DNA of 64,000 bases from Paramacrobiotus metropolitanus (Eukaryota > Tardigrada > Eutardigrada > Parachela > Macrobiotidae): contig NW_026570458.1 in NCBI RefSeq assembly GCF_019649055.1, positions 43,496 to 107,495 on the forward strand, written 5' to 3'. Each line of letters begins with the position of its first letter. Position 1 is the first letter of the stretch. The notes under the pieces were generated by a model that saw only the letters and a list, made by a program, of their open reading frames with translations, did no database searches and was not told the origin of the DNA. A program made the position numbers and the translations under genes. Shown here piece by piece: positions 28,802 to 44,170 of this stretch.

Positions 28802-28827
28802 TTAAAAAGGTGCAAATCACGGCTGCG

Positions 28828-28936
28828 AGTAGTATCCTGGTCTGTTTGAACCAGTTTTTTTTGTCCGGGGGGGTCCAAATTTTAGGCCCTAGGGGATAAT
28901 TAACGGTTTGTGTGTTTCTGCCCTAGGGGATAATTA
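28828..28936 (+). repeat. Polinton left terminal inverted repeat
   Basis: About 109 bp matching 43848-43956 in inverse orientation, apart from one substitution/indel after the T8 run and one G in the inner CCTAGGGG. It contains a twice-repeated CCCTAGGGGATAATTA motif. In protein-primed replication these ends would be the origins (family knowledge). Confidence 0.9.
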
Positions 28937-28937
28937 T

Positions 28938-29258
28938 GGATCACTGATTTCAGTGATCCTTTGTACGACATGGATCACGGAGTTCAGTGATCCTTTGTAC
29001 AATACGGATCACTGATTTCAGTGATCCCTTGTACAGATCATTCTTTTCGGTGATCCATACGAGTGCAACGGTTGACCACGTACGTACAATACCGTAGCAA
29101 CATTATGAGGGATCACCGGAATCGGTGATCCCTTCGAGATTATCAGAATTTGGAGGGATCATTGAGTTCGGTGATCCCTTTAGCACAACACATAACCGTG
29201 TACGTACGACACCGTGGCAACAGTACATACGTAAGATGATCGAGATCGGTGATCCCTC
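28938..29258. repeat. Palindromic repeat array 1 (left end, upstream of PolB)
   Basis: Seven copies of GGATCAC-N8-GTGATCC (first at 28,938, then about 28,972, 29,005, 29,035, 29,109, 29,154, 29,234). The outer arms are conserved and the 8-nt centres vary (tgatttca, cggaatcg, tgagttcg). It lies between the TIR and the TATA box of PolB. Confidence 0.85.
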
Positions 29259-29262
29259 GGGG

Positions 29263-29271
29263 TATATAAAG
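29263..29271 (+). promoter_or_regulatory. TATA box before PolB
   Basis: TATATAAAG, immediately after the last palindrome of array 1 and about 120 bp upstream of the putative PolB ATG at 29,391. Confidence 0.55.
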
Positions 29272-29390
29272 CAGGTGGATTTTTTAATGAATTTCAGTCT
29301 AAACACATTTCGCCACATTCTAACAGATTTTCTTGACACAGTAGTCGCACAGGTGTATTTCTTCACAAATAAAATCGCTATTCTCATATT

Positions 29391-32300
29391 ATGGACTTCT
29401 CGAGGTAGCGACAACGGGAGAAAGAAGTACCAGCGATCTCAAAACGACAACGGGAAGAGACTGAACCAGCAACATCAAATGATCTTACGAATACGGAAAC
29501 AGGTAAATTTCTGGAAAATAATCTTACGTAAAAAATGCATGATTATTTACCAAAATATTTATTTTGAAATCCCTTGCATTTGCGTTCCAATAATATTGTT
29601 TTGCACGTGTACGGTGAAAACACTGATTTAAAAATATGAAAAAAAAGAATTTACGCAGATTCATCGGATGTCGCTCTCGAAAATATTATTGATCATATCC
29701 ACATCAAAGACGCCGGTTCAAAAATTTGGAAAAAATTTGGATTGCATTCAAAGTGTTCTTTAGTCAAGGTAAAGCGGAGCTACATTTCTCAAAAATATTT
29801 GGAACAAGTCTGAAATTATTTACGAATGGTACGATAATTTTTGTAGGCTTCTGATTTGGAAACGCTTCCTTTTGCGATAGTTCCGATGGCTCTGACGTTG
29901 ATATTGCAACATGTATTGGACTACGTGTTAGAAGGTGTACATCCTGAAGAGATGGTGCGAGTACGAATCGATTCAAAATCTTTGAATTACCCGATTTGGA
30001 CACCACCGATTCAAAGATCGCAACTTACTGTGCGCCGTTGGATGGCGGAAGTAGCACGAGTACTCAACACTTACGAAGAATTCCGCATGGACAAACACTT
30101 TGAAGTACTAGTTCAACATACTGAGATTCCTAAAGGCTCCTGTGTCCGCGACGTTCCCATATTACTAAAAAAGAGGCTACAGAGGATGAAATCTGTTATC
30201 GTGATAACAAATTCCGATTCCATTTGCCTCGCAAGAGCCTTAGTCGTCGGAAAGGCATATGCGGACGGTGATAAATTGCTATGCCGAAGGATAAGACGCG
30301 GAGAGAAGTTTCAAACAAATGAAGCAAAAGCGTTGATAAGGAATGCTGGACTGGATGAAAGAGAGTACACAATAACGGATGTCCCATTTTTTCAACAGGC
30401 ACTTGCGACATACCAAATTATCATTGTGAGTGTAGATCATGCCAACAGGATCGTGTACAGTGGACCTCAGCAGGAAAAACGCATAGTGTTGCTGCATCAT
30501 AATCATCCCTTTGACTTACTCAATTCGTTGCCGGCGTTTTTTCAAAACAGCTATTGGTGTTATGCGTGCAACAAAGGCTACAATGAAAAAGCTAACCACC
30601 GTTGTGAATCAATTTGCAATTCATGCTTGCGTTCTGAATGTGAGGTGGATAGAAGAAACATCATCGAGTGCCCAGACTGCCATCGCAAATTTTATGGTTC
30701 CGTTAGTTTCGCCGAGCATAACGTTGCTTCTACCCCCACACAGAAGCAACGGAAAAGCATTTGTCAGACAATTTTTATTTGCCAGCAGTGCCTTCGTGTG
30801 GTATCAAACAGGAATCGCAAAGGTACCGATCAACATCAATGCGGAGAAGTGTACTGTCAAACGTGCAAGGTCCACGAACTACCCGAGTCTCATAAATGTT
30901 TTATGAAGCCTCACAAAGTGACCGAAGAGGAACTACAAGAGCACAAGAGTGCCAGCTTTCTGTATTTTGATTTGGAGATATATGTGTCAGAAAACCACGA
31001 ATTGGTGCCTAACCTTGCGGTAAGTGCAGCTCAAAAAGTTCACAATTCGTTACAATTCACAATTCAATTTTAATACAATTCATTTGTATTTTTCTATTAG
31101 GTTGTGCAGGACGACGAAGGACACGAATGGATTTTTCCGGAAGAAGGTAGTCCCTTAGGCGGTAACGTTACTGACCAGCTGTGTACGTTTTTATTCAATG
31201 AGCGACACAGAGATCACTACATCATCGCCCATAATTTCAAGGTAAAAATCATTTTCCGAAAGATTACGGTTGAGTTAACACATTCATTTTTAGGGATTTG
31301 ATGGCTATTTTATTTTGCGTTGGTTACTGGAAAACGGAATAGTCCCAAAAGTTATTATGAACGGTGGAAAGATACTGCAAATGGATGTGTCGGAATTCAG
31401 TATTCGCTTCCGGGACAGCTTCAACTACAATCCGCAAAGCCTTGCAAAATGGCCAGCAACCTTCGGCATTCGGGACATTGGAAAAGGCACATTTCCGCAC
31501 CGATTCAATCGTAGAGAAAACTGGGACAAGGTTCTTCCTTTTCCGCAGCCAGAAGAGTACGGATTTTCATGTATGAACAGGAAAGCGAAGGAGTCATTTA
31601 TGTCTTGGTATGCTACGGAAGCGAAAGAAAAAGGTTACCTTTTCGACTTCCGGAAAGAGATTGAAGAGTATTGTCGCATGGATGTGACGGTATTACGCAC
31701 GTGCTGCCAACAGTTCCGCCGTTTATTCCAAGAAATCAGCAACGGATTGTGCCCTTTTGTCTCGGCTATGACGATTGCTGGTGTTTGTAATCGGTATTGG
31801 AAGTCTTTTATTCTTAAACCAGAACAGATTGGCCTTCTTCCGCAACGTTTACATTCAAGAAATCGGAACCAATCAGAAATCGCCAAGAAATGGTTAGCCT
31901 GGATAGAAAAGAAGAGGAGTGCATTTTGGAATCTACCTTGACGGGATCTGAACACCAGATTGGGCCGTTTTTTGTTGACGGATACCGTGCCGATATCAAT
32001 CACGTTTACGAATTTTACGGCTGTTGGTACCACGGGTGCCCTCAGTGTGAAGCTCCTGAAACCATACACCCTTTCCGGGATATTCCAATGTCGGAAATAT
32101 ACAACGAAACCCAGGAACGGGAGAAATATATCCGCAGCCAGGGATACGGTGTGACCACCATATGGGAACATGAATTTGTGGATCAGATAAAGTCGGATCC
32201 CGAACTGAGATCTTTTGTTCAAAAACTCTCCTTTATTGCTCCTCTGGATCCACGAAATGCATTCTACGGTGGTCGTACTAATGCCGTCAAGCTTTTTCAC

Positions 32301-33762
32301 CAGATATCCGGTGACGAAACTATAAGTTATTATGACGTCAACAGCGAATACCCATACGTCAACAAAAACAAACGGTATCCCGTTGGTCACCCGAAAATAA
32401 TAACCAAAGATTTTGAAGATATTGGAAGTTATTTTGGTGTTGCCCTGTGTCAAGTGCTTCCTCCTGGGGATTTGAAACTACCAGTACTACCATATCGCTC
32501 GGGTGGTAAGTTAACGTTTCCTTTGTGCCGGACATGTGTGGACAAGTACCAAAACTCTAAGTGTGAGCACACCGATGAAGAGCGCGCTTTAACGGGAGCC
32601 TGGTGTACACCGGAAATAAACGAAGCTGTGAATCGTGGATACGTGGTCCAAAAGATTCACGAAGTCTGGCATTTTGAGCAGCACGAAGACCGTCTTTTTG
32701 AAAAGTATATCAACAAGTTCTTGAAGATCAAAACGGAAGCAAGCGGTTGGCCTGCCCACGTCCACACTGAAGCTGATAAGCAGCAATACATTCAAGATTT
32801 TAAACAGCATGAGAACATTGAACTGGATTATGAAAAAATCACTCCAAATGCTGGACTGCGTTCACTGTCTAAACTTTGTTTAAACAGGTTAGTTTATAGA
32901 AAACATACAGCTGTCACAGTACCAAAATTAACAATTGTTACATTATCTTTCCTTTTTATAGTTTCTGGGGACGTTTAGGAATGCAAGAAAACAAGCTCAG
33001 CACTGCCTATATTACTGAACCACAAAAGTTTTACGATATATTGTTGTCGGGAAAATATCATGTGCATTCTTGGGACATGTTCTCGGAAGATGTTGTGCAG
33101 TTGACATACACCAAAGAAAGCGGTTTCGCGGATCGTAATCCGAACACCAATGTCATTTTAGCGGCGTAAGAATTATCCCTTTTATTTGTTGCGGTTTTAC
33201 CATTGGGTGCAATTTACAGGTTTACAACATGCTAGGCACGACTCCATTTGTACAAATTTATGGACATGGTCGGGGAGCGGTTGTTGTACTTCGATACAGG
33301 TACAATATAACCATGGATTTGTTGTCCGCTTATCTATTCTGGTTTTCAAAATCCAGATTCAATTTTCTTTGTGACAAAACCCGGATTGATTGACCCCCAA
33401 AGGGCTGCTTCCTTGGTGATCTTACCAACGAATTAAAACCAGGACAGCATATCGTGCAATTCCTCAGTTTGGGAGCCAAGACTTACGCGTACGTCACTAA
33501 TGATGGCGATACTGTGGTGAAAGTGAAAGGATTCACTTTGAATGGCCAAACTAGTGAGCAAATTAATTTTAGTAAAATGCTGGAAATGTTGGAGAACCGT
33601 GATACAGTTGATATACAGTATCCCGACATTCTGAAGCGCGTAAAGAAGGATTTAACAATTTGTAGCGCTAGCATGCAAAAACGGTTTCAAGTGACGTATG
33701 ACAAACGTCGTATTGTGGATAGTGAGTACAATGCACTTCCGTACGGTTTCAAGTTGTTATAA
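29391..33762 (+). pseudogene. polB: Polinton protein-primed DNA polymerase B (interrupted)
   Basis: Family-B polymerase with 3'-5' exonuclease that replicates the linear element from protein-primed ends. Exons I can phase: 29391-29502, 29659-29768, 29847-31019, 31101-31241, 31294-32887, 32962-33165, 33220-33299, 33357-33762. Exo I is FDLEIY, Exo II HNFK-GFDGY (across an intron), Exo III EYCRMDVTV. Pol motif A is YDVNSEYP; motif B KLCLN-WGRLG spans an intron, as does motif C FDT-DS. A CxxC-rich zinc region precedes the exonuclease (CNSC, CPDC, CQQC). Breaks: in-frame TAG at 29,406 and 33,233, a frame change near 31,905, and another near a C5 run at about 33,398. The gene is probably inactive unless TAG is read through and the indels are assembly errors. 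Confidence 0.85.
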
Positions 33763-34286
33763 AATTTAATAAACTTTTTGATCATGGTTGCAATCTGTTC
33801 CACAGCAGCTGACAAATCAGTAGAAGACTTCAAACCTAGAAAGTTACATTTACCAGATGGAAACAAAACAGCACGACCAACACAAAGCTTAACGGCAAGA
33901 CCGCTAAACAATTCCGGTGTGTACTCAAGTTTAAAGTACTCGCTAAATTTCTCAATATGAACACGTTCAGGAAATGTGTGGTTAGCTACAATATTAACAA
34001 TTCGGTACCCGGTAATAACGCATGGAAATCCGATCCTCCTTAGCATTCCAACAAACAACTCCAGTATTTCCTTCACTTGTTCTTCGGATCGCCCTCCATT
34101 TACAGTGATTTTGCCATTGCGATATACTTGGCAGTGTGCTTTGACCGGTTGGAGAACACGAATCAGTAGTCCAGAAAACCGTTGAGGAATATACTGCGCC
34201 ATTGGTAGAAGTTTTTCAATTTTCCAAAGATCCAGGGTAGTGTTTAAGTCCGCAACGGCAACAACATTGGTGATTCTGGGCATCAC
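33687..34286 (-). CDS. TATA-binding-protein homologue encoded by the Polinton
   Basis: A 199-aa open frame from its own ATG-ATG. It has the two-fold pseudo-repeat of the TBP saddle. Repeat 1 has ITNVVAVADLNTTLDL, YIPQRFSGLLIR, NGKITVNGG and SEEQV; repeat 2 has YRIVNIVANH, YTPELFSGLAVK and LFPSGKCNFLG. Three of the four intercalating Phe positions are kept (QRF, ELF, VLF) and the fourth is Tyr (CQVYRNGK). Length is close to a bare TBP core with no N-terminal extension, and it ends in a basic tail. It overlaps the upstream frame by 71 bp in another phase. TBP genes are known in some large DNA viruses; I know of none described as a Polinton gene. It converges with the PolB 3' end, overlapping by 76 bp. 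Confidence 0.85.
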   Translation of the reverse strand: MMPRITNVVAVADLNTTLDLWKIEKLLPMAQYIPQRFSGLLIRVLQPVKAHCQVYRNGKITVNGGRSEEQVKEILELFVGMLRRIGFPCVITGYRIVNIVANHTFPERVHIEKFSEYFKLEYTPELFSGLAVKLCVGRAVLFPSGKCNFLGLKSSTDLSAAVEQIATMIKKFIKFYNNLKPYGSALYSLSTIRRLSYVT

Positions 34287-34836
34287 AGTGATACCACAAG
34301 GCGAACCGAACAGCTTTGCGGAGGGTCGACACAGGGAGCGAGGTGAGTTTATGATATGGTGGGCAGCCCAGAGATTCGAGGTTTCTCACTTCCGGTAGAA
34401 ACTGCTCAAGCAGTCGACACTTCTCAAGGCCTTTGGCAAAAAACTGCACTTGGCTGGGTCGTCCGATTCTTTGAAAAATGTCCTCCAAGGCACACGTTAC
34501 CTGATTGTGTCGGTACTCTCCTTCTGTATGCCACAAGAGTCCGTGCGAGTGTCGAGCTTGACTTTTCAGCGCGGGTATGTGCTTCCTGGCGAATCGTGGA
34601 AGCGAGAAAGTGTAAAGATTTTGTTCGTCTTTGTCCGGGCAGTAGAAAGCCAGCTGTTTGATGTATTTGGTTTCATTGATAACGAACCAATCGGTATCCA
34701 GTATGCATGGTACTGCCATTTCGTCTACCGGAGTACTAGGCAAAATTCCAGTTAACTGATAACGCACAATGTTGTGGTTAGAGTCTTGTACGTTTATGCA
34801 CTGAAAACCGTTTATTTGTACTAGGAAGAGGATCAC
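34216..34836 (-). CDS. Mobile-element exonuclease-like protein upstream of the TBP gene
   Basis: A 206-aa frame; the first ATG in frame is near 34,724, so the N-terminus may lie in an upstream exon (a ttttcag site precedes it near 34,798) or be shorter. It contains LDTDWFVI, IKQLAFYCP, ARHSHGLLWHTEGEY, QFFAKGLEKCRLL and LESLGCPPYHKL. This spacing (an acidic first motif, HGLxW, KGxEK, and a CP near the end) resembles a widespread animal mobile-element family I believe to be DEDD/RNase-H-fold exonucleases, but I cannot confirm the active site. A Cys/His-rich C-terminus (CDAQNHQCCCRCG) could bind zinc. It shares the divergent promoter of array 2 with the PC4-like gene. Confidence 0.5.
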   Translation of the reverse strand: MILFLVQINGFQCINVQDSNHNIVRYQLTGILPSTPVDEMAVPCILDTDWFVINETKYIKQLAFYCPDKDEQNLYTFSLPRFARKHIPALKSQARHSHGLLWHTEGEYRHNQVTCALEDIFQRIGRPSQVQFFAKGLEKCRLLEQFLPEVRNLESLGCPPYHKLTSLPVSTLRKAVRFALWYHCDAQNHQCCCRCGLKHYPGSLEN

Positions 34837-35123
34837 TCAAGTCGGTGATCCCTATCGTACAAGTTATCACCGAGTTCAGTGATCCCTATCGTACAAGGGA
34901 TCACCGAGTTCAGTGATCCCTATCGTACAAGGGATCACCGAGTTCAGTGATCCCTATCGTACAAGGGATCACCGAGTTCAGTGATCCATATTGTACAAGG
35001 GATCACCGAGTTCAGTGATCCATATCGTACAAGGGATCACTGAAGTCAGTGATCCATATCGTACAAAAGATCACTAAACTCTGTGATCTTTTGTACTTTG
35101 CAGGATCACCAAAAACGGTAATC
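34828..35123. repeat. Palindromic repeat array 2 (divergent promoter of TBP-like and PC4-like genes)
   Basis: Nine copies of GGATCAC-N8-GTGATCC, the central ones separated by TATCGTACAA-type spacers, giving a strict 34-bp period. Copies 3 to 6 are identical in the palindrome (centre cgagttca). The flanking copies diverge but compensate, for example AGATCAC..GTGATCT. Confidence 0.9.
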
Positions 35124-35183
35124 CGTGCATTGAGGTATCGATTACCGATATCGATGGTCTACTAAGTGAGCACTGAAGATTGC

Positions 35184-35190
35184 TATAAAA
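35184..35190 (+). promoter_or_regulatory. TATA box before the PC4-like gene
   Basis: TATAAAA about 72 bp upstream of the ATG at 35,262, just outside palindromic array 2. Confidence 0.5.
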
Positions 35191-35261
35191 ACCAAATGTA
35201 ACCGGTAGATTCTTAGTGAGTTGTTGTGTTTACCTCTGGTTGAAATTTAATCTAAATCAAC

Positions 35262-36219
35262 ATGGAATTTATGGACCTGTTTGCATCCAAACGACCGCAG
35301 ACCGCTGCGACCAAGCCCAAACGAAAAGGTCAAGAGGAGGGTGGAAAGCCGGAAGCTAAGAAGAGCAAGCCCAACAGTTTACCGGGCACGATATCTACGC
35401 ATCCGCGATTTGTTTTTGCACAACTGGGAAAGCCGGTCTACCGCTTGGGAAACGACAAGTTCGTGTATGTGGGACCTAGCGCCGACGGGAAAGATCAGTA
35501 CGATTCATGTGGTTTTCGGTGAATGGAAGGAGCAGCCGGACAATTCCTGGAAAGCCAGCTACGGGAAGAACGTTTCGCTGTCCAAGATCGGTTTTCTCCG
35601 TTCGGCCGCGCTCATGCTAACTGAGAAAGCTGACATGGATGAAACGGCCCGTGCCAGTGCCGCTGAAACCGGTCGGCTGACCCCGTTGTACCTTTTGGAC
35701 AGGAGCATGTATTTCGGATGGAGTCGTTTCAATGGCACCAACGTGGCGACCATTCGACGTTTTGAAGTAAAGGGAGGGGATATGATCCCCACCCGCTACG
35801 GTGTTTCTTTTGGTGAACGCTGCTATGACGGGTTGAAGGACCTCATGAAAGACCTGCAGCTGTTCAAAGACATGGTGAAAATCTAGAAGGAACAGGAGGT
35901 TCACGAGCCGGTCAAAGAAGGACTAGAGTACCCTATGCTGTGCGAGAACGTTGCTGAGGCTTTAGCGCCATTATTCTAGCAGCTGGATGATGGTACTGTT
36001 GATCAGTGCCACGAAGAAAACTATCGACCATCCGACGGTGAATGGAACGGTGCTGTGGAGCGGTTCTGGAATTGCGTATGGTGCATGGTATACTGTTCGG
36101 ACTGGATAAGCTCAGTGTTGAGCAGGCTCTGGACCTGGACGTGGCTGGATTTTTGAAGAAACACGAGGATCAGCTTCGTGAGAATGTGGATGGAATTATT
36201 ACCGCTAATAATTGCTGAT
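35262..36219 (+). pseudogene. PC4/Sub1-like DNA-binding coactivator, tandem domain, interrupted
   Basis: The protein opens with a Lys-rich nuclear-type tail (KPKRKGQEEGGKPEAKKSK). It then shows two PC4-like beta-beta-beta-beta-helix units. The first runs from FVYVGPSADGK to YGKNVSLSKIGFLRSAAL. The second is MYFGWSRFNGTNVATIRRF with MIPTRYGVSFGERCYDGL, matching the PC4 pattern of an R-V-x-V..F-x-G strand pair followed by P-x(2)-G-[IV]-S-[LF] and an amphipathic helix. PC4 proteins bind ssDNA or melted DNA and assist transcription initiation and replication. Breaks: a frame change near 35,495, in-frame TAGs at about 35,884 and 35,978, and another frame change near 36,085, beyond which a coding-like tail continues to about 36,219. 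It sits divergent to the TBP-like pair. Confidence 0.65.
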
Positions 36220-36278
36220 TTCCTGCTGTTTTATCTACTTGTACGACAAACGAAAAAAACCGGACATTGTTTTAGTTT

Positions 36279-36791
36279 TCATTTTATTAAACGTTTGCAC
36301 ATCTGTCGGAGCAAAGCTCCATCCACCATGGTTGTATGGATGTCAAAAAAAGAATTAACATACTGACACACCATTTTGTCGTTGTTTATTCGGCTATCCG
36401 TAAACAAATGCACAATATTAGTGTACGATTCACCACTACAACGTCGTAGAATAAAAAACAAACAGTATTGTCCACAAACAGTGCTAAATTCAGACTGAAA
36501 CTGTTCATTTTGTAGAGTGATTTCATTGGCTGCCACCAGTGGTTGGAAATACTGTGAATAGCTTTCCAATGCTTTTCCGTAAGAGTCAAATACCTCCATT
36601 TTACCGGGTTGTTCCTGGTACAGGGCGATCCAGTGCTCACCTTCCTGGTCAGCTGGGTCCGTATTCACCACACACGCTCCCGGAAAAGGTGTCAGGCTCG
36701 TTGGAACTTGATTGCTGGCGTAGACTCCACGAAATACCGCAGTGGTGTGAGGATTTCCATGGAGTGCCGAGGTAATTGCTTGCGTATTCAT
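36279..36791 (-). CDS. Adenain-type capsid maturation protease (PRO)
   Basis: Intact 170-aa Ulp1/adenain-fold cysteine protease. Catalytic His is in GEHWIALY, Asp in EVFDSYG, the oxyanion Gln in NEQFQSEF and the nucleophile Cys in TVCGQYCLFFILRR. It processes capsid proteins in relatives. Its ATG overlaps the MCP stop by four bases, and its 3' end is close to the PC4-like gene's degraded tail in convergent orientation. Confidence 0.9.
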   Translation of the reverse strand: MNTQAITSALHGNPHTTAVFRGVYASNQVPTSLTPFPGACVVNTDPADQEGEHWIALYQEQPGKMEVFDSYGKALESYSQYFQPLVAANEITLQNEQFQSEFSTVCGQYCLFFILRRCSGESYTNIVHLFTDSRINNDKMVCQYVNSFFDIHTTMVDGALLRQMCKRLIK

Positions 36792-38124
36792 GTTGTAAAG
36801 TCCGCGATCAGTTGACGGTGCTGGTTGATTTCAATAATGCTGTCGTAGACAAGCATACACACCATCATAATGGTGCTTTTCAGTGGTTTCCCGAAAGACA
36901 CAGAAACGCTAAGGTTTCCTTGTTTGATCAGCGTCAGCGGTCCGCGGCCGGTATGTCCTGGAGTCAGGTCAAAACCGAAAATGGTATAGCCGTCGTTATA
37001 TTGGGTCCGGTTGAACGGTAAGCCGCCTTGCAAGCTGGGACGAAGTCCCAAAGTGTCCAACAACCCGTCGTAGCACTCCAGAGATAACTTGCGGTCGAAA
37101 TCGGCAGTGTACGGTTTGGTTGGATAACTCTGGCTGTCCACTTCGACGCTGATTTGTGTAACGTTGAAGTGCTGAAAGTTGAAAGGATTTTTCTTTTGCG
37201 ATCCGTGAAAGTCTTCGCTGTCCACAAAGCCAATGAAGACTACCTTAGGGATTTGTCCAATCTGCAAATTGCTGACTACGGTGCTTTGGGTTCGTTGGGG
37301 AATGTCCGACACACGCATCACCACGCGTTCGATATGGTACTTGACTGTTTTTTTAGGAGTTCTCCGGCTACGGCGGTCAGAAAGTCCGGAGACGGAATGT
37401 ATCGGCGAATTGATAGACGCGCGTTACGGATAAACGGTTTAAATGTCTTGGTGGTATCCGTGTCCCATACACGTAAGGCAAACTCCGGTCGACTAACCAC
37501 TAGGCGAATGTTGACGGGTACACCGGTGCACAGCGGCTTGCTTTGGTCAAATAGGTCGGAAAATAGTTTGCCGGAAAGCTGTACGTACTGTCCAGTATTA
37601 AATAACGCCGTTCGATTTTTTTCACCATTGTTTGCGGTTTCACTGTTGAAGGAGCCCGGAGAGTCGTAATAGAAACCGGCGGATGTCAGTTGGCTTTGTT
37701 GGGCGTCAAGGGAGTGGGACAGCAGAGATTCCAGGTAAGCGCGGTACGGATAAAACGTGGCGGCATCCGAGATCAACCGGTTGGCCACCGTCACATGGCA
37801 TGAAGAGAACAATGAGTGCAGAATGTTGTTGACCAGTGCCACACCATCAGCCGTTGTAATCAGTTCCCATTCCCCAGTGCTTTTGCGGACATTAATACCC
37901 ACTTCCAGTTCCAGGATCATATCCGCTAAACTTAGTAGTCCGGCCGTGCTGGGTGGAATGAAGAAATTGATATCGCCGGCGGATCCATTGTCTGTCAAGA
38001 CGGTAGTGGGGTTCAGCTTTTCATGTTCCGTGCGCCATCGATCCGTTAAAGTGGCCGGTAATGCAAAGAGCTGGTTCTCCAATTGCATGGCCGGCTCAGA
38101 ATTTTCCATCATCAGCATGGCCAT
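36788..38124 (-). pseudogene. Polinton major capsid protein (double jelly-roll), one frame change
   Basis: The N-terminal part (38124-37318) has INFFIPPSTAGLLSLADM, LHSLFSSCHVTVANRLI, YPYRAYLESLLSHSL and a LIGR-like KLFSDLF. The C-terminal part continues in another frame to 36,788 with IPKVVFIGFVDSEDFHGS, KNPFNFQHFNVTQI and YDSIIEINQ. This is the conserved Polinton MCP pattern. The frame changes at an A7 homopolymer (T7 on plus, 37,348-37,354). It could be a real indel, a homopolymer sequencing error, or slippage. It overlaps the preceding core gene by 29 bp. Confidence 0.85.
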
Positions 38125-38524
38125 TTTTAGAAGAAATCGGGGATGTTGGTAGGGGAATACGTTTCACTCGAACAACTTTGCGTTGAACTCGTCGCTTCTT
38201 TCGAACACCTTCTCCTTCCTGGGAAGCAAAACGTTTTTCTATGGCTGTTCCCGCACGTGCGGCTACCTCTTTAATAGCCCCGGTAGCAGCTTCTTGCAGG
38301 TGAGGTGTAGCCGCTTCCAGAGCAGCTTTGGCATGGGGTGCGGCTTTCCGTAATATTGGTTGAACAAATCCTGATAATTTGGCAAACAGATTTTTCAAAA
38401 TCTGTGGGAAGCCAGACCCATTTTGCAGAGTGCCTCGGTACCGAATCAGTGCGCTACCACCGCTCTGACTCAAAAAGACGTTCTCGTATCGCCGGGGATC
38501 CGGCACGTACTCCACCAGAGGCAT
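38096..38524 (-). CDS. Small basic virion/core protein
   Basis: 142 aa with an N-terminal segment YENVFLSQSGG, an Ala-rich amphipathic helix region (HAKAALEAATPHLQEAATGA) and a strongly basic patch (RKKRRVQRKVVRVKR). It lies between minor and major capsid genes as in other Polintons. By analogy with adenoviral core or pVI-type proteins it may bind DNA or membranes; this is inference from composition and position. Confidence 0.6.
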   Translation of the reverse strand: MPLVEYVPDPRRYENVFLSQSGGSALIRYRGTLQNGSGFPQILKNLFAKLSGFVQPILRKAAPHAKAALEAATPHLQEAATGAIKEVAARAGTAIEKRFASQEGEGVRKKRRVQRKVVRVKRIPLPTSPISSKNGHADDGKF

Positions 38525-38525
38525 T

Positions 38526-39495
38526 TTAGTATAGTCGTTGTGGTCGGAAATGCAGTTTCACAAGAGACTTTCCCGTTTGGAACTTGGCGTCGTCTCCCAG
38601 ATCGTTGGCAATGGTCAGCTTTATGGTTTCAAAATGTTGTCGTAATACAGGGACGTAGTGGGGAATGTCGAATCTGGCCTCCACAATTTGATTGACTTCT
38701 CCTCTAATAGGCACGGAACGTAAAAACTGCGCTGCGGTATCCCCAATCAAGCTGTAGTCGGCCACGTCACTGTAGACAAACAGGCTTTGATTTCCCAGTA
38801 GGGTATTGACCGGTCGCTCCGAAATGAAGCTGGTCAGCTTTGGATTCGGAGGTTTTGCCAGAAATGACAGGTACTGGATACTGACGTTCTTGGTTTGCAT
38901 AGGAAAAGGACCGATGAATGCATTGCTGTTACTTTCCATCGGCACATCAGGTTTCAGTACGCTGTGCTCAAATCCCAGCATTTTTTGTAGGACTATCGAC
39001 GACGAAGGAAAGACAACAGAAACCCGATCGTTACCAATATTCAGTCGAACTCGATGATTGGTGGCGGTCAGCAATTGAACGGTAAAGGCTCTGTCGGCAG
39101 TCAAGGCGCTCTTGTCAGCGTGTACTGTATCGTCCACCATGTACGATCCAACTTTGGGTACCAATGAATTGATGGTTTTAATAGCAAATCGGCATCTTTG
39201 TAATTTTCCAGGAGGGATGGTAATCTCGTCGGTATGGACAACTTGGTCCGCAGACTCCAAAAGTTTGCTTCGTCTTTCTTTAGTCTGAATTCTTTAACGA
39301 TGTGCACTTCAATCTTCTGCTCGACGGGAAGAGTGAAAAGGAATTGAGGTATTGTAGTTCAACCAAGGCCATTTCCCATTTTCCCTTCAGGGTAATGGGA
39401 TGCTTCAGTTTGGTCGTCCAGTTCGAAGGAGTGTTGCTCGGGTCCGTCGCCACATCGCTCGGTAGCGTCACGTAGAATGGTGCTCCTTCGTACAT
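38526..39495 (-). pseudogene. Polinton minor capsid (penton-like, single jelly-roll) protein, interrupted
   Basis: The frame starting at 39,495 (MYEGAPFYVTLPSD, NWTTKLKHPITLKGKWEMAL) continues in a second frame (VKEFRLKKDEANFW) and a third (EITIPPGKLQRCRF, FFPMQTKNVSI-like, FVYSDVADYSLIGD, NQIVEARFDIPHYVPV) to 38,526. The order and motifs match the Polinton penton-like protein. Frame changes lie near 39,330 and 39,255, both in short homopolymers. It overlaps the 3' end of the integrase gene by 28 bp. Confidence 0.8.
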
Positions 39496-40523
39496 GATGA
39501 TGCCTTGATCCAGGAATCGTGCTCAGGTCCGTAACCTAACCAACGAACTAGTACTCTGTCACCACGGCGTCTAATGATACGGTCGATGGTACATTCCTTC
39601 TGTTCCGGGCGCGATACTTTGGAGAGCTCGTGTTCATAAAAGGTTCCTTGGATAGGTTGGTTTTGGTAGTCCTTTAGTCGGTATACCGGTACGGTATGTG
39701 AAATGACTTTAATGATGTAGAACACCTCCTCCTTAAATCGATACGTATAGCCTTTTTCCACCTTGGTTTTATGCACGGCTATCCGGACTGCATCGCCGAC
39801 CTTGAATCGAGGTGGTCGAACTTGTCTGGTTGGATACAATTTGTTGAATACCGCCAAAGAATTGTTCTGGGTGACGTCTATCGGTCGCAATCCATGTGCT
39901 CGATGTTTGGAGTGGTTATACGAGTACACCAAATCTTGCAGTTTATCAATGTACCGGGTCGAAACCCGCGCACGAAACAAACGAAACATTCGTGTTTTGA
40001 TGGTACGGATAACGCGTTCTGCCATGGCACATTTGATGTCTTCGTTTTCCGATGTGAAAAACTGAATCTTTCTCCCTTTCAAAAAGGTCTTGACCGTTGC
40101 GTTAACGACTTCAGTGCCTTTATCGTACTGCAGCTTTTCCGGCTCGCCGAGTTCTTTGAAAGCCTTGGACAAGGCAGTCTTGGTTTCGTTGGCCGTTTTA
40201 TACTTCATTGGTTGAATGGTCAGCTTTTTGGAGAAGCAATCAATTACAAACAGCAGGTGTTTGTACCCATCATTTTCCTTGGAATATTTTGATAAATCAG
40301 CCAGATCAGCTTGGTACTGCTGACGAAGGTTGGTCACTACGACCCGGTTGCGTGCAAAGCGACGTCGATTTTCCTTGGTCACAGTGTACGCATCGATCTC
40401 TTGCAGAATCTCCTGAGCTTTCCGTCTGTTGGCTCTGGTCTTTAGACTTCTTCGGAACCTTTCCACGCCTCCAAGACCGCCGGGATCGCGCGGGTTGAGG
40501 TATCGCTTCATTAGTTTCTCCAT
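39468..40523 (-). CDS. Polinton integrase (RVE type) with C-terminal chromodomain
   Basis: I start at the ATG at 40,523 (MEKLMKRYLNPRD), about 351 aa; the frame is open 27 nt further upstream without an ATG. DDE catalytic residues sit in QADLADLS, LQYDKGTEVV and MAERVIRTIK. N-terminal NPRDPGGLGGVERF is typical of Polinton integrases. The C-terminus carries a chromodomain-like fold (IDRIIRRRGDRVLVRWLGYG, then DSWI). A TATTTAAG box lies 35-42 bp upstream. The frame is intact. It would insert the linear element with 6-bp target duplication. Confidence 0.9.
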   Translation of the reverse strand: MEKLMKRYLNPRDPGGLGGVERFRRSLKTRANRRKAQEILQEIDAYTVTKENRRRFARNRVVVTNLRQQYQADLADLSKYSKENDGYKHLLFVIDCFSKKLTIQPMKYKTANETKTALSKAFKELGEPEKLQYDKGTEVVNATVKTFLKGRKIQFFTSENEDIKCAMAERVIRTIKTRMFRLFRARVSTRYIDKLQDLVYSYNHSKHRAHGLRPIDVTQNNSLAVFNKLYPTRQVRPPRFKVGDAVRIAVHKTKVEKGYTYRFKEEVFYIIKVISHTVPVYRLKDYQNQPIQGTFYEHELSKVSRPEQKECTIDRIIRRRGDRVLVRWLGYGPEHDSWIKASSCTKEHHST

Positions 40524-40557
40524 CCGCTTTGTTGCAGCAGGAGGAGACACAGTTGAT

Positions 40558-40565
40558 CTTAAATA
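40558..40565 (-). promoter_or_regulatory. TATTTAAG box before integrase
   Basis: Minus-strand TATTTAAG located 35-42 bp upstream of the integrase ATG; the same octamer precedes the ATPase and the 42,662 ORF at similar distance. Confidence 0.55.
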
Positions 40566-40609
40566 TACGGCATAACCGTAATACGCTGGGGATAAGACCA
40601 GCCATTACG

Positions 40610-41452
40610 TCAGAGTGATCCAGTGAATTCTGGTTCGGCCCGCCCCTTTTTGGATGGTACGCGAGCGCAGTTTTCTAACACTGCTTTCAATCTGGTCCGC
40701 CTTTCTTTTTTTTCCCACGTAGGAGAGTAGTGACCGAAACAAAGGTCTACGAGGTCGCTTACGGAAGACCCTTGGTTGTCGATGCTTTCAGTCGATCGTT
40801 TTGACCCTTCCTCGGTGCGGTCAGGAAACAACGCTATGCGCGCTGCTTTTGTTGGTCGCGATTCGACACTTTCGTCTTGATGACGTTTGGAACCTTTCTT
40901 CGGTAGCCACGCCGGAAACAAAGCAATGCGTGCGGTCTTTGGTTTGTTGCTGTCTTCAGGATCGATTTCGTGGTCGCGTTTCTGTCCTTTAGTGGGTAAA
41001 TCAGATGGGAATAAAGCTTGTCGAGGTTGCTTCGTAGGAGCAGCTTCCTCAAATTCTTCTGGTATCTTTCGTTTTTGAGAAGTTGGCTGTTCTGACTCTT
41101 GTGTTTCAACAATCATAGCTTGCGGTGGCAGTCGGGAATACGGACGGAATACCGAGGGTTGCGGATTCCTTTCCGCAGCTATTGGAAGCGGTTGTGTGAC
41201 TACGTCCGTGGGTAATTCTAACGGATTTTCATCAGGAATGGCTTTCTGTTTCAAGGCAAGGAACCGCTCTAGGATACTACTCAGCTGGCTGGCTTTTTCA
41301 TACTCGCTTATATCAGCACGTTGGAGCGTTTGAATTACGAGAGCGTCCAGCGATAAAACACTTTGTGCTTCCGGGGGTTCTCTGTTTATCTGGAGCTGTT
41401 CATGGAGCCGGCTTTCCATTACTCGGCGTGGAACAATAAAGTATTCATCCAT
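40610..41452 (-). CDS. Polinton PX-like protein, low-complexity charged
   Basis: 280 aa. The N-terminus is MDEYFIVPRRVMESRL with predicted helices; the C-terminal half carries three copies of a [RQ]xALFP..LP.KGxKR-type repeat (PRQALFPSDLPTKGQKR, ARIALFPAWLPKKGSKR, ARIALFPDRTEEGSKR). Position between ATPase/PY and integrase matches the poorly characterised PX family. Function is unknown; the repeats suggest a scaffold or DNA-associated role. Confidence 0.6.
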   Translation of the reverse strand: MDEYFIVPRRVMESRLHEQLQINREPPEAQSVLSLDALVIQTLQRADISEYEKASQLSSILERFLALKQKAIPDENPLELPTDVVTQPLPIAAERNPQPSVFRPYSRLPPQAMIVETQESEQPTSQKRKIPEEFEEAAPTKQPRQALFPSDLPTKGQKRDHEIDPEDSNKPKTARIALFPAWLPKKGSKRHQDESVESRPTKAARIALFPDRTEEGSKRSTESIDNQGSSVSDLVDLCFGHYSPTWEKKERRTRLKAVLENCARVPSKKGRAEPEFTGSL

Positions 41453-41771
41453 TTCCGATAAGAGAAGTTAGAACACCGGCAATGACTGGTAAGATGGCTC
41501 CAATAAATCCTCCTTGCTGAATCAGTTTGCGTTTTTCTTTCAAAGGGTAGCGACGTAAGGCAATCAGCTTTAATGCTTTCCGATATTGTTTGCACTTATC
41601 TGCTTCGGCGGGAGATAAGTTAACTGTATTTTTCACAATATTGACAGCCACTTCTTCCAGCGCTTTAAGTTGCGATTTGGTTAGGTAGCTCACAAGGACT
41701 TTCCGCTGCTTTGGCTTCAAGTGCTGCAGCGTGATGATGAAGGGCGCTAAGGCCTTTACCCTTTCCGACAT
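41445..41771 (-). CDS. Small Polinton protein with Gly-rich hydrophobic tail (PY-like)
   Basis: 108 aa with KPKQRKVLVSYLTKSQLKAL, a basic middle (RRYPLKEKRKLIQQGG) and a hydrophobic C-terminus (FIGAILPVIAGVLTSLIG). This pattern (a KxKQR helix, a KRxLLQxGG turn and a membrane-active tail) recurs in animal Polintons. It overlaps the ATPase by 16 bp and PX by 8 bp. Confidence 0.65.
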   Translation of the reverse strand: MSERVKALAPFIITLQHLKPKQRKVLVSYLTKSQLKALEEVAVNIVKNTVNLSPAEADKCKQYRKALKLIALRRYPLKEKRKLIQQGGFIGAILPVIAGVLTSLIGNG

Positions 41772-42445
41772 TTTGGTAAAGTGTTTGTTGAGTTCCGGTT
41801 CAGATAAATCCGCATTCGTTCACCTGGTAAAACATGGGATCGTATCCTTAAATAATCTGGGCACGTTGGGCGTAAGTCCAATACCAAAGGTTGATAAGGC
41901 TCCGATGTTACTTTGTTGTATGCGTCGACCAAATGTTTCAGTCCGGTTTGACGTGCCAGTAATGCGATTTGATTGACATCCCGGACGTTCTTAAATAGTA
42001 TCAGGTACTGCGAATTGAGTGTGATGTCACGCATGGATTTTCCTTGTTTGTACAGGTTTTGCAGAAGCAAGATGACGGAAACGTTCTTGTGATGAATTCC
42101 ACGGGTAAACAGGTCCGAAAATCGAGAATCTTTGCACAGATTGGTAGCCAAATCGTCGATAATAACCAAGGTATGAGTCTTACTGTCAACTGACTGCAAA
42201 ACTGAGAATAGATCGTCCAGACCCTGCAGGAATTCAACTGGAGTAGCCTGTTTACGTAAGGTTTCGAAACCCTTCTGCCATTGACCGTAACAGTATAATA
42301 TCCTCGTTGGTTGTTGATCCAGAACAAAGTTACTGTTTTTCAGGAGCGTAAATACGAAGTTTGTTTTGCCCGACATTGTGGGCCCACAAACGCACATTCC
42401 AAACGGAGCACAAAAGCGCGGATAATCGTTTATCACGCTAAACAT
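41756..42445 (-). CDS. FtsK/HerA-type genome packaging ATPase
   Basis: 229 aa, intact. Walker A is CGPTMSGKT, Walker B LVIIDDL, and a sensor-like Gln follows in VILLLQNLYKQG. Length matches Polinton A32-like ATPases. It is first in the minus-strand run, with a TATTTAAG box 43-50 bp upstream. Confidence 0.9.
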   Translation of the reverse strand: MFSVINDYPRFCAPFGMCVCGPTMSGKTNFVFTLLKNSNFVLDQQPTRILYCYGQWQKGFETLRKQATPVEFLQGLDDLFSVLQSVDSKTHTLVIIDDLATNLCKDSRFSDLFTRGIHHKNVSVILLLQNLYKQGKSMRDITLNSQYLILFKNVRDVNQIALLARQTGLKHLVDAYNKVTSEPYQPLVLDLRPTCPDYLRIRSHVLPGERMRIYLNRNSTNTLPKCRKG

Positions 42446-42487
42446 TTTTTAGCAAACACATAATGTTGGTGCACCAAATATGTTCCG

Positions 42488-42495
42488 CTTAAATA
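42488..42495 (-). promoter_or_regulatory. TATTTAAG box before ATPase
   Basis: The octamer lies 43-50 bp upstream of the ATPase ATG in the divergent spacer to the plus-strand 42,662 ORF. Confidence 0.55.
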
Positions 42496-42615
42496 GGCTT
42501 TGTTACGAACGGGTATTTTTAAATAACAGGTATTGTTTCAGTGACCAATAATGCAAAATAATTCATAAAGCGTTTGAAAGATTTAATTACTCGTGGAAAA
42601 TAAACAACGCTAGTC

Positions 42616-42623
42616 TATTTAAG
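42616..42623 (+). promoter_or_regulatory. TATTTAAG box before the membrane ORF
   Basis: The octamer lies 39-46 bp upstream of the ATG at 42,662, mirroring the minus-strand copy at 42,488. Confidence 0.55.
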
Positions 42624-42661
42624 GGATGTTAATGTGTTTCAATAATAACTGACAATTTACA

Positions 42662-43005
42662 ATGGCTAACCTCCAGCACATGTTGTGCTGTGCACGAAAC
42701 CTAGAGCAAAAATGTGAGAAGGTGTTGTTAATTATTCTGTACGTTGTGTTTTTCGTTGTTTTTGCTGCGTTTGTTGTCACCGAAAGCGTTGGAAAAATTA
42801 TGCAGACCGATTACTGGAACAGCACCTTACGAAACCAGACAATCGAACAACATGACCTTTCAAATACCAGGTAAGACCTTTATAGCATTTCGTTAAACGA
42901 CTGTGATAAATACGTGGTTCTGACTGATTGAAAATTTTACCGGAAACTTATGTCATCATTTTATTACAGTAAAAACGCAACGGTCGGATTTCATGGAGCA
43001 GCGTA
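42662..43005 (+). CDS. Small single-pass membrane protein
   Basis: An N-terminal Cys-containing segment is followed by a clear transmembrane helix (VLLIILYVVFFVVFAAFVV) and a short tail with N-glycosylation sites (NST, NQT). Unspliced it stops at 42,872; a GTAAGA donor at 42,871 and a ttattacag acceptor at 42,968 would extend the tail to SKNATVGFHGAA with another glycosylation site. Function is unknown; a virion-membrane or egress role would be speculation. Confidence 0.55.
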
Positions 43006-43247
43006 AGATTGGGAGTGTCTTTAAGCCAACAACTCCGGTCATACCTTTTGAATCGACCCATAAACGGAAAAACAAAAAGCTGCAACAACTTTTCGGAACG
43101 AAGCTGTTCTTTCTCGACGATGGCGCCACAGACAATAATGCGTTTTTATTAATTCAACAGCAATTTCAGAATGAAATAAAACTTCCATTATGCGTATTGT
43201 CCGTTCAGATCGAATACGTAGTGAAAAAACCACATTCATTTATCTAA
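42993..43247 (+). CDS. Small Polinton ORF of unknown function
   Basis: 84 aa from ATG (MEQRKIGSVFKPTTPV), basic middle, ends PHSFI. It overlaps the putative spliced tail of the 42,662 ORF. No motif recognised; it lies before palindromic array 3. Confidence 0.35.
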   Translation: MEQRKIGSVFKPTTPVIPFESTHKRKNKKLQQLFGTKLFFLDDGATDNNAFLLIQQQFQNEIKLPLCVLSVQIEYVVKKPHSFI

Positions 43248-43312
43248 AGATTACTTAAAAGTGTACTGTTGCTACGGTGTTTTACGTACGTGATTGACCG
43301 CTGCACTTACAT

Positions 43313-43567
43313 GGATCACTGATTCCGATTATCCCATACTTTAAGGGTTATCAAAACCAGGAAAGATTACCAATAACGGTGATCCGTGTCGTACACGGGA
43401 TCACTGAACTCGGTGATCCGTGTTGTACAAGGGATCACTGAACTCGGTGATCCCTGTCGTACAAGGGATCACTGAACTCGGCAATCCGTGTCGTACAAGG
43501 GATCACTGAACTCGGTGATCCATGTCGTACAAGGGATCACTGAAATCAGTGATCCATGTCGTACAAG
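43313..43567. repeat. Palindromic repeat array 3 (right end)
   Basis: About seven copies, the last five regular at 34 bp with GGGATCAC-tgaactcg-GTGATCC cores separated by GTCGTACAA spacers. It is inside the right TIR, mirroring array 1 at the left. Confidence 0.85.
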
Positions 43568-43847
43568 TGAAAAAAATAGGGAAGCCAAGATCGAACAGTG
43601 GTCGTGGTCGTTCGGAACATATGTCACCGCAATAGCATACTTACCCGACCACAGATCAAGCTTCCTGTTTTTCCTTTTTTGTTCTTATCACTCAAAAATT
43701 AAAGGTAATGCACTAATCAGTATGTCATTTTCACAATGCCATCTAACGAAACGATATTTAGTCTGCAATTTCATGACGTATTTTAACAAAATCACATATT
43801 AAAAACATTCCACTCGTTAAAATTTTCCCGGTCAAAAAACACGCCGT

Positions 43848-43956
43848 TAATTATCCCTAGGGCAGAAACACACAAACCGTTAATTATCCCCTAGGGCCTA
43901 AAATTTGGACCCCCCCGGATAAAAAAAACTGGTTCAAACAGACCAGGATACTACTG
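43848..43956 (-). repeat. Polinton right terminal inverted repeat
   Basis: Inverse of 28828-28936 with about two differences; it ends GGATACTACT before the target duplication GCTGCG at 43957-43962. Confidence 0.9.
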
Positions 43957-44170
43957 CTGCGTATACGGTATACCTGTTTGTGAAAGATCGGCTGATTGCG
44001 CTTTTATTTGTGTAGGTAAACCAGTTTGTCGTCGAGCCTGAAGGAATACAAGGTACAATCACCACACAGTCACTGTCTAGTGGAAATTACAGCCCTTGCC
44101 ATACTAGTTTTAAACACAGGACAAATATTTTGTACTAAGCTTGTGCTAACGGGTGTCAGCTCTGTACAGT
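43957..44170 (-). other. Displaced 5' flank of the interrupted LRR paralogue
   Basis: Sequence after the Polinton (gatcggctgattgcgctttta, cctgaaggaatacaagg, agtggaaattac) matches 23,195-23,330 upstream of the intact LRR gene. It shows where the pre-insertion locus resumes. Confidence 0.75.

Follow-up and report, generated by a model that had tools for sequence, protein, structure and literature searches.

A Polinton-encoded TATA-binding protein in a tardigrade genome as a candidate selector of the element's own late promoters

Introduction

Virus-type DNA that encodes the fold of the TATA-binding protein (TBP) has been described in several settings, which we summarise here from the excerpts of the papers cited. 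Late promoters of Kaposi's sarcoma-associated herpesvirus (KSHV) carry a TATTWAA sequence recognised by the TBP mimic ORF24 (PMC6541308, PMC12529657), in which Asn residues at the positions of yeast V122 and T124 are both essential, and L114 and V213 are replaced by Ser and Thr (PMC12529657). The Epstein-Barr virus (EBV) mimic BcRF1, which according to a review passage is ~10% identical overall to an archaeal TBP, likewise binds the TATT box found in late promoters of that virus (PMC4893493). TBP genes occur sporadically among mirusvirus-like elements endogenous to a green alga (PMC10675990), and viral TBPs with diverged N-terminal lobes may evade Mot1-type regulators (PMC7221094). For Polintons, the excerpted vertebrate description (PMC8097293) names eight core genes, and neither a TBP nor a PC4-like gene is among them. 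Here we analyse a 64,000-nucleotide stretch of the Paramacrobiotus metropolitanus genome (contig NW_026570458.1, positions 43,496 to 107,495; hereafter the window) that holds a Polinton encoding a TBP, and we argue that this protein, inherited and diversified together with its elements, probably selects their late promoters. We found no Polinton-encoded TBP in the literature searched, although few subscription papers were covered and absence from print is not thereby established.

Results

The first-pass annotation of the window had read both halves of a TBP saddle, with RF, ELF and LFPSGK at the intercalating positions, in an intact frame of 199 amino acids. Sequence and structure comparisons bear out the saddle. 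Pfam TBP (PF00352) matches the frame in two stretches with 108 bits (curated cut-off 22.9; E 2.1e-31), yeast TBP aligns with residues 2-174 in a phmmer search of PDB sequences (6e-20), and RF, ELF and LFPSGK pair with yeast F99, F190 and F207 in the alignment. The fourth intercalating position, yeast F116, is a Tyr in the window protein, as it is in 3 of 22 cellular rows; with N69 and N159, the protein carries four intercalating aromatics (F99, Y116, F190, F207) and the two central Asn residues. An AlphaFold2 model, for which the input was the window protein plus 41 database relatives, has the saddle fold with a mean per-residue confidence (pLDDT) of 93.7. Its top Foldseek match is 1qna_A, a chain of a TBP-TATA crystal (E 1.1e-16, query/target TM-scores (TMq/TMt) 0.83/0.90, 1.3 A, 27% identity), and identity to the TBP chains found by Foldseek is 26-30%. 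The window frame is a genuine two-lobe TATA-binding protein, with binding to a TATA-type box as its predicted activity. The length given for the frame stands in part: it is open, on the minus strand, and starts at GTG with ATG as codon 2 (199 codons from GTG, 198 amino acids from ATG), but the final ~21 residues are probably not ancestral, because the closest copies (C19, 94%, and C55, 93% identical) align to residues 1-177 only, numerous other copies extend to residue 199 solely through stop codons, and model confidence drops to mean pLDDT 60 and 55 in the final two blocks.

The same gene recurs in other Polintons of this genome (169.8 Mb, 533 contigs). Two merged searches, the second screened for overlaps by eye and contributing fifteen rows, gave 154 listed TBP loci, and a search with the gene at the capsid position of the element gave 134 loci merged from 144 rows, with second pieces of split matches excluded. 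At least 131 of the 154 TBP loci lie within 15 kb of a capsid-position and/or packaging ATPase gene (87 are near both), and for at least 129 of the 188 listed element loci a listed TBP lies no more than 12 kb away. The other 23 listed TBP loci include two of host type: C4 is the host TBP itself, and C66 is a TBP-related gene that we take to be TLF-like. The loci near element genes show four gene arrangements. In arrangement A, the window type, the TBP gene lies ~3.7 kb past the capsid-position gene; in B it adjoins the ATPase gene in divergent orientation; in C and D it lies upstream of the ATPase gene, by 0.7 or 1.4 kb, on the same strand. Among the matches listed, B copies are ~36-45% and C/D copies 27-33% identical to the window TBP; in the capsid-position gene there is hardly any difference between B and C/D, with most listed rows at 43-50% identity to the window. 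A D-type TBP (L041:1377-2444) has a C-terminal tail of ~180 residues containing acidic and repeated motifs, and the TBPs of L046 and L051 have shorter acidic tails. Upstream of the TBP gene in the same D-type element is a BIR (inhibitor of apoptosis) frame (L041:2-436; 2.7e-07, above cut-off).

In a tree of 81 rows, from which L052, L053 and P0088 had been dropped for their long branches and which held no TBPs of nucleocytoplasmic large DNA viruses or herpesviruses, one clade of 49 rows (support 100/99) unites 12 element TBPs from this genome with P0079 and 36 relatives from databases, including P0054, and is separate from the TBPs of the host, of other eukaryotes and of archaea. A constraint that joins element and host TBP is worse by 20.9 log units and borderline in the approximately unbiased (AU) test (p-AU 0.048), for a group that was named after seeing a tree. 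Two database relatives, P0054 and P0062, are P. metropolitanus proteins annotated as 'TATA-box-binding protein-like'; of the relatives listed under an organism name, no others are ones that we do not regard as cellular TBPs. In a first tree, with some rows poorly trimmed, P0054 lies ~0.09 changes per site from the C201 copy (L041); by eye, fish 'TBP-like' database matches resemble cellular paralogues. Viral contigs scanned with TBP and capsid-position queries yielded no element-type TBP and no capsid relative. The IMG/VR contig L053 does encode a TBP (L053:9974-10531), 36% identical to a cellular query, and also has terminase- and portal-like genes recognised by eye; it is perhaps a tailed virus of archaea. 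Together with the herpesvirus mimics and the mirusvirus-like elements (PMC10675990, as excerpted), this contig calls for caution with the earlier statement that viral TBPs are known only from large DNA viruses.

The element TBP gene is under purifying selection. Ratios of nonsynonymous to synonymous rates (dN/dS) were obtained from 23 A-type copies with open frames, a choice that favours low values; 10 of 33 copies were omitted where the start pattern failed. Of 253 pairs, 207 gave a value, and 183 of these fell into five bins (10, 12, 0, 1 and 160 pairs). The median is 0.21 at dS 0.1-0.3 (12 pairs) and 0.156 at dS 1-2.5 (160 pairs), and because these medians are low we consider the gene to be maintained by selection. 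In the 10 closest pairs (dS 0.005-0.1) the median is 0.415, and the youngest copies are perhaps in decay.

The residues expected to face DNA have changed in a consistent way. We aligned, in yeast numbering, 35 TBP rows of the A/B type, of which 8 belong to this genome and 27 are database relatives, and 13 of the C/D type (4 from this genome); positions contacting TFIIB and those of the N-terminal lobe are ones we assigned on our own assumption. All 14 DNA-contact positions used are present in Table 1 of PMC12529657, as excerpted. A/B rows retain the bending and central residues N69 (34/35), F99 (34/35), N159, F190 and F207 (35/35 each), and are substituted to Q114 (33), Y116 (33), T122 (34), N124 (35), V205 (33), N213 (35) and L215 (33 of 35). 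Changes at groove contacts include L114Q, V122T, T124N, V213N and T215L, each in 33-35 of 35 rows; none of the substitutions is shared by the host TBP, which matches yeast throughout these positions. C/D rows have Q114 and L215 in 13/13, N124 in 11/13 and N205 in 10/13, and mostly keep V213 (10/13). The EPEL-type TFIIB-contact residues are largely retained, and E188 of the TFIIB stirrup is present in 33/35 A/B and 13/13 C/D rows. On the N-terminal lobe, K138 (19/22 cellular rows) and K145 (20/22) are unconserved in A/B (K145 in 10/35).

Two promoter-like motif classes appear, TATAWAW and [CT]ATT[TA]AAG (YATTWAAG); the second was defined in A copies, before any comparison with the herpesvirus papers. 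Of 24 A copies, 21 have TATAWAW within 110 nucleotides (nt) of the ATG of the PC4-like gene, and none has YATTWAAG there. Within 130 nt 5' of the ATPase gene the pattern is reversed: YATTWAAG is found in 20 of 21 A copies (antisense in 2) and TATAWAW in none, and in 17 of the 20 the box stands 41-63 nt ahead of the ATG. Stretches from the ATPase to the integrase gene in 12 A copies hold 42 YATTWAAG sites in sense orientation and a single antisense site, with 2.25 expected per strand. The capsid-position gene has a box ~133-159 nt upstream in 8 of 9 copies (L124 lacks it), and its nine stretches hold 12 sense and 0 antisense sites. Shuffling of synonymous codons gives fewer sites than are seen: 3.25 expected for the 22 in 12 ATPase genes, and 0.89 for the 10 in the next open reading frame (ORF) of 10 copies. 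In the pVI-type ORF that hosts the capsid-gene box, 8 genes have 8 sites, compared with a mean of 2.2 and a maximum of 6 in 200 shuffles. One ATPase site reads TATTTAAGG in 9 of 12 A copies, where it stands ~67-86 nt ahead of the next ORF, and likewise in B copy L039.

In B elements the motif is strand-biased: held-out B regions (7 copies) hold 20 sense and 4 antisense sites, with 2.62 expected per strand. Held-out C/D regions (7 copies) hold none on either strand, and 18 C/D ATPase upstreams have no YATTWAAG and no shared box that stood out; the looser TATTWAA gives 8 sense and 5 antisense sites in the 7 C/D copies, against 6.26 expected per strand. Outside the element, the window shows no YATTWAAG excess, with 1 + 4 sites in 28.0 kb and 0 + 2 in 19.5 kb (2.27 and 1.86 expected per strand). 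Ahead of the unit formed by the TBP gene and ORF1, the frame directly 5' of it, none of 32 A copies has YATTWAAG and 8 have TATAWAW (within 160 nt). The ATPase upstreams of five D-type copies (L112, L114, L117, L118, L119) have in common a stretch resembling TTTGCTCATT(A/T)AGC. It differs from the A/B box and may represent another promoter code.

The element that carries the window TBP (Table 1) extends from 28828 to 43955 and ends in AGTAGT and ACTACT. The earlier description of a Polinton with a perfect target duplication holds, with GCTGCG on both sides and inverted arms that are 99% complementary. The polymerase B, rve integrase, adenovirus-type protease and packaging ATPase of the Polinton gene set are all present. 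Some of their matches lie under cut-off in the window and above it in other copies: Peptidase_C5 reaches 2.8e-05 in L039, and rve and Chromo are both above cut-off in L041. The window copy is partly decayed, with the polymerase spread over several ORFs and the capsid-position gene split in two ORFs vs one in L039; broken frames were left unmended. Segment 29856-31070 of the polymerase has no Pfam family match. The PC4 match of the window sits in a different frame from the ATG downstream of the TATA box; in L042 PC4 is above cut-off (1.9e-08, 34.1 bits) and in L045 under it (0.02). Nine of the ten PC4 matches in the genome are within ~2 kb of listed element TBP loci, and the tenth (C41), which scores best, is presumably a host gene. 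The name capsid-position gene reflects gene order, and the product is putatively a major capsid protein. A double jelly-roll capsid profile gives a weak match under cut-off to the homolog in L041 (E 0.067), the protein has no notable PDB or PHROGs match, and its single-sequence model (pLDDT 30.7) is useless. We likewise presume ORF 38526-39260 to be a minor capsid or penton gene.

The TBP gene of 32 A copies and of B copy L039 is preceded by ORF1, which has 167 amino acids in many A copies; the search pattern gave none for L021, L043 and L047. ORF1 has no Pfam family above cut-off and no PHROGs match, and is a possible partner of TBP. Iterons of the form GGATCAC-N8-GTGATCC, mostly at 34-bp spacing, occur at both termini and ahead of the PC4-like promoter; upstream of TBP they are present only in L009 (the window copy), L010-L012 and L015 among 33 A copies examined. 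They are possible operator or replication sites. An ORF of ~100 amino acids (LPSVLRLCRIFKINCVS type; 40306-40605, minus strand) overlaps the integrase start in most A copies examined, a case of possible dual coding. In several A copies (L080 and L084 among them; by eye) the end of a RING-finger-like gene (C-P-x-C-R) seems to lie just 5' of the ATPase gene.

Table 1 Features of the Polinton in the window (positions within the 64,000 nt)
Feature	Position	Strand	Evidence or remark
Target-site duplication GCTGCG, left copy	28822..28827	.	Read in sequence; 6 bp, perfect
Left terminal inverted repeat, AGTAGT start	28828..28928	+	Arms 101 nt, 99% complementary
Palindromic iterons (GGATCAC..GTGATCC type), left terminus	28938..29257		
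TATATAA, putative early promoter, polymerase strand	29263..29269	+	Seen in window copy
DNA polymerase B, several ORFs, broken or spliced	29856..32978	+	DNA_pol_B_2 1.8e-20 on 31890-32975
Element TBP	33687..34286	minus	PF00352, PDB sequence match, AlphaFold2 model, Foldseek
ORF1	34216..34836	minus	Directly 5' of TBP, overlaps TBP start
Internal palindromic iteron array	34830..35110		Spacing 34 bp
TATAAAA upstream of PC4-like gene	35184..35190	+	
PC4-like gene, frame broken in window copy	35262..35886	+	PC4 5.1e-4, 19.9 bits, under cut-off, 35281-35883
Adenovirus-type cysteine protease	36279..36791	minus	Peptidase_C5 3.3e-4, 20.8 bits, just under cut-off
Capsid-position gene, two ORFs	36788..38124	minus	At least 144 genome matches
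TATTAAAG box	38269..38276	minus	~150 nt 5' of capsid-position ORF
Conserved ORF	38526..39260	minus	No Pfam match
rve integrase + chromodomain	39468..40550	minus	rve 4.5e-10; Chromo 1.1e-3, under cut-off
TATTTAAG box	40558..40565	minus	5' of integrase, within small overlapping ORF
A32-type packaging ATPase	41756..42445	minus	Pox_A32 8.2e-07
TATTTAAG box within ATPase gene	41847..41854	minus	83 nt 5' of next ORF
TATTTAAG box	42488..42495	minus	50 nt 5' of ATPase ATG
Palindromic iterons, right terminus	43314..43557		
Right terminal inverted repeat, ACTACT end	43855..43955	minus	101 nt, 99% complementary to left arm
Target-site duplication GCTGCG, right copy	43956..43961	.	Read in sequence

Discussion

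The first-pass annotation had proposed that an element-specific TBP would let the Polinton choose its own promoters. Altered groove residues and a distinct motif before packaging and capsid-position genes give this proposal indirect support, and from them we infer that the TBP binds the motif. The reading we consider probable is that the Polinton-encoded TBP, inherited and diversified with its Polintons, acts as the element's own late-promoter selector. Host TBP/TFIID would read the TATAWAW class early (the PC4-like gene, perhaps also the polymerase and, depending on subfamily, the ORF1-TBP unit). The element TBP, once made, would bind [CT]ATT[TA]AAG before packaging and virion genes, bend the DNA there and recruit host TFIIB and RNA polymerase II (Pol II) via its mostly kept C-lobe stirrup, and it might partly evade host regulators that act through the basic surface of the N-lobe. 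Host TFIIB is the likely partner because no TFIIB was detected at the elements: PF00382 gives six matches in the genome, at three loci (C45, C100, C28), none on contigs with a listed element TBP, with the limit that a very divergent TFIIB could escape this search. The ATPase and capsid genes are assumed to be late from their function. The chances seem to us evenly balanced that a ~15-kb transposon/virus thus runs its own early-to-late switch, with host TFIID first and then an element TBP whose re-polarised groove works with host TFIIB/Pol II on TATT(T/A)AAG boxes lying in coding sequence as well as in intergenic gaps of the packaging and virion genes. Such a switch would be a minimal counterpart of the herpesvirus TATT late-promoter system, of independent origin and built on one protein.

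Several observations weigh against a TBP-based late-promoter selector. The motif classes have exceptions: 3 of the 24 PC4-like genes are without TATA (in 9 further copies no start was found), A copy L077 has no ATPase box, B copies hold 4 antisense sites, and the ORF1-TBP unit of B copy L039 is itself preceded by TATTAAAG. Some sites lie within coding sequence, where the excess over shuffles varies in size; the small ORF over the integrase start has 7 sites vs 2.36 in synonymous shuffles, and 11 orf280 and 9 integrase genes have none. The copies share ancestry, so motif counts are non-independent, and gene context was read for the 8 A/B rows from this genome, out of 35. On the protein side, TFIIB-contact residues differ in some A copies (FADR in L044, SPTR in L042). 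C/D TBPs share Q114, N124 and L215 although C/D elements are without the motif, and therefore those changes alone cannot explain the box. Finally, EBV BcRF1 alone binds TATA and TATT equally in vitro (PMC4893493, as excerpted).

The enrichment of the motif was measured independently of TBP, and [CT]ATT[TA]AAG could be a real late promoter whose reader is host TBP or a different factor of the element, with the element TBP serving other promoters. ORF1, which belongs to no family above cut-off and travels with TBP in A copies and L039, could be such a factor. The motif, however, tracks the A/B type of TBP and is absent with C/D TBPs, and we regard this alternative as possible but rather unlikely. 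Less likely again is that the element protein stands in generally for TBP at ordinary TATA boxes of the element, free of host TBP regulators or limits. The TATAWAW box of 21/24 PC4-like genes, the retained bending Phe residues and the loss of conservation at K138 and K145 would all fit, but the A/B clade as a whole has altered groove contacts, and the second motif class is left unexplained. A main role in DNA replication or packaging, through bent terminal repeats, or in opposing host transcription is very unlikely: TATATAA does lie near the left terminus beside iterons, and PC4-like and polymerase genes share the element, but TATTWAAG boxes are on the coding strand before packaging and capsid-position genes and the EPEL-type TFIIB-contact residues are mostly retained. 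A passive host TBP retrocopy or single-copy accident, for which homology alone speaks, is already contradicted and can be set aside, because the TBPs hold fixed gene-order positions, in several arrangements, at more than a hundred loci, under purifying selection and in a clade apart from host TBP.

If the late-promoter selector is real, a core-promoter code can belong to a small DNA element itself, late promoters of the TATT type have more than one origin, and tardigrade 'TATA-box-binding protein-like' annotations are at least partly element genes. The genome also supplies many natural pairs of a diverged TBP and a diverged promoter motif, which makes the choice between TATA and TATT directly testable.

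Set beside known systems, the protein shares with cellular TBP and TBP-related factors the fold, two lobes, bending Phe residues, central Asn residues and part of the TFIIB stirrup, and differs in its separate clade, its altered groove and the absence of a long N-terminal region. Giant DNA viruses likewise combine a virus-type element with a TBP fold (BFVD matches), but the best BFVD match by E-value (TMq 0.73, 19% identity) is poorer than that to cellular TBP (0.83, 27%), and the giant-virus pairing of TBP with TFIIB has no counterpart at these elements in the PF00382 genome search. Mirusvirus-like elements, as far as the excerpt describes them, are also integrated, virus-type and sporadically TBP-bearing; the window element differs in having polymerase and ATPase. 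Animal Polintons/Mavericks agree with it in AGTAGT/ACTACT ends, 6-bp duplication, polymerase B and rve integrase with chromodomain, as well as adenovirus-type protease, A32-type ATPase and capsid-position gene (PMC8097293, excerpted vertebrate description), and the window element departs from them in its TBP, its PC4-like gene and its two promoter-like motif classes. A further comparison is with the herpesvirus mimics (KSHV ORF24, EBV BcRF1, human cytomegalovirus UL87), which also pair a TATTWAA-type box on virion-type genes with TATA on others and have polar residues at yeast 114, 122, 124 and 213, T124N being identical in the element TBP. Unlike them, the element TBP has V at L205 and L rather than S at T215, and is a short, plain two-lobe core without the extra N- and C-terminal domains of the ORF24/BcRF1 type. 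Because the element TBP and ORF24 are, as far as seen, related by fold alone, we read their polar grooves as convergence.

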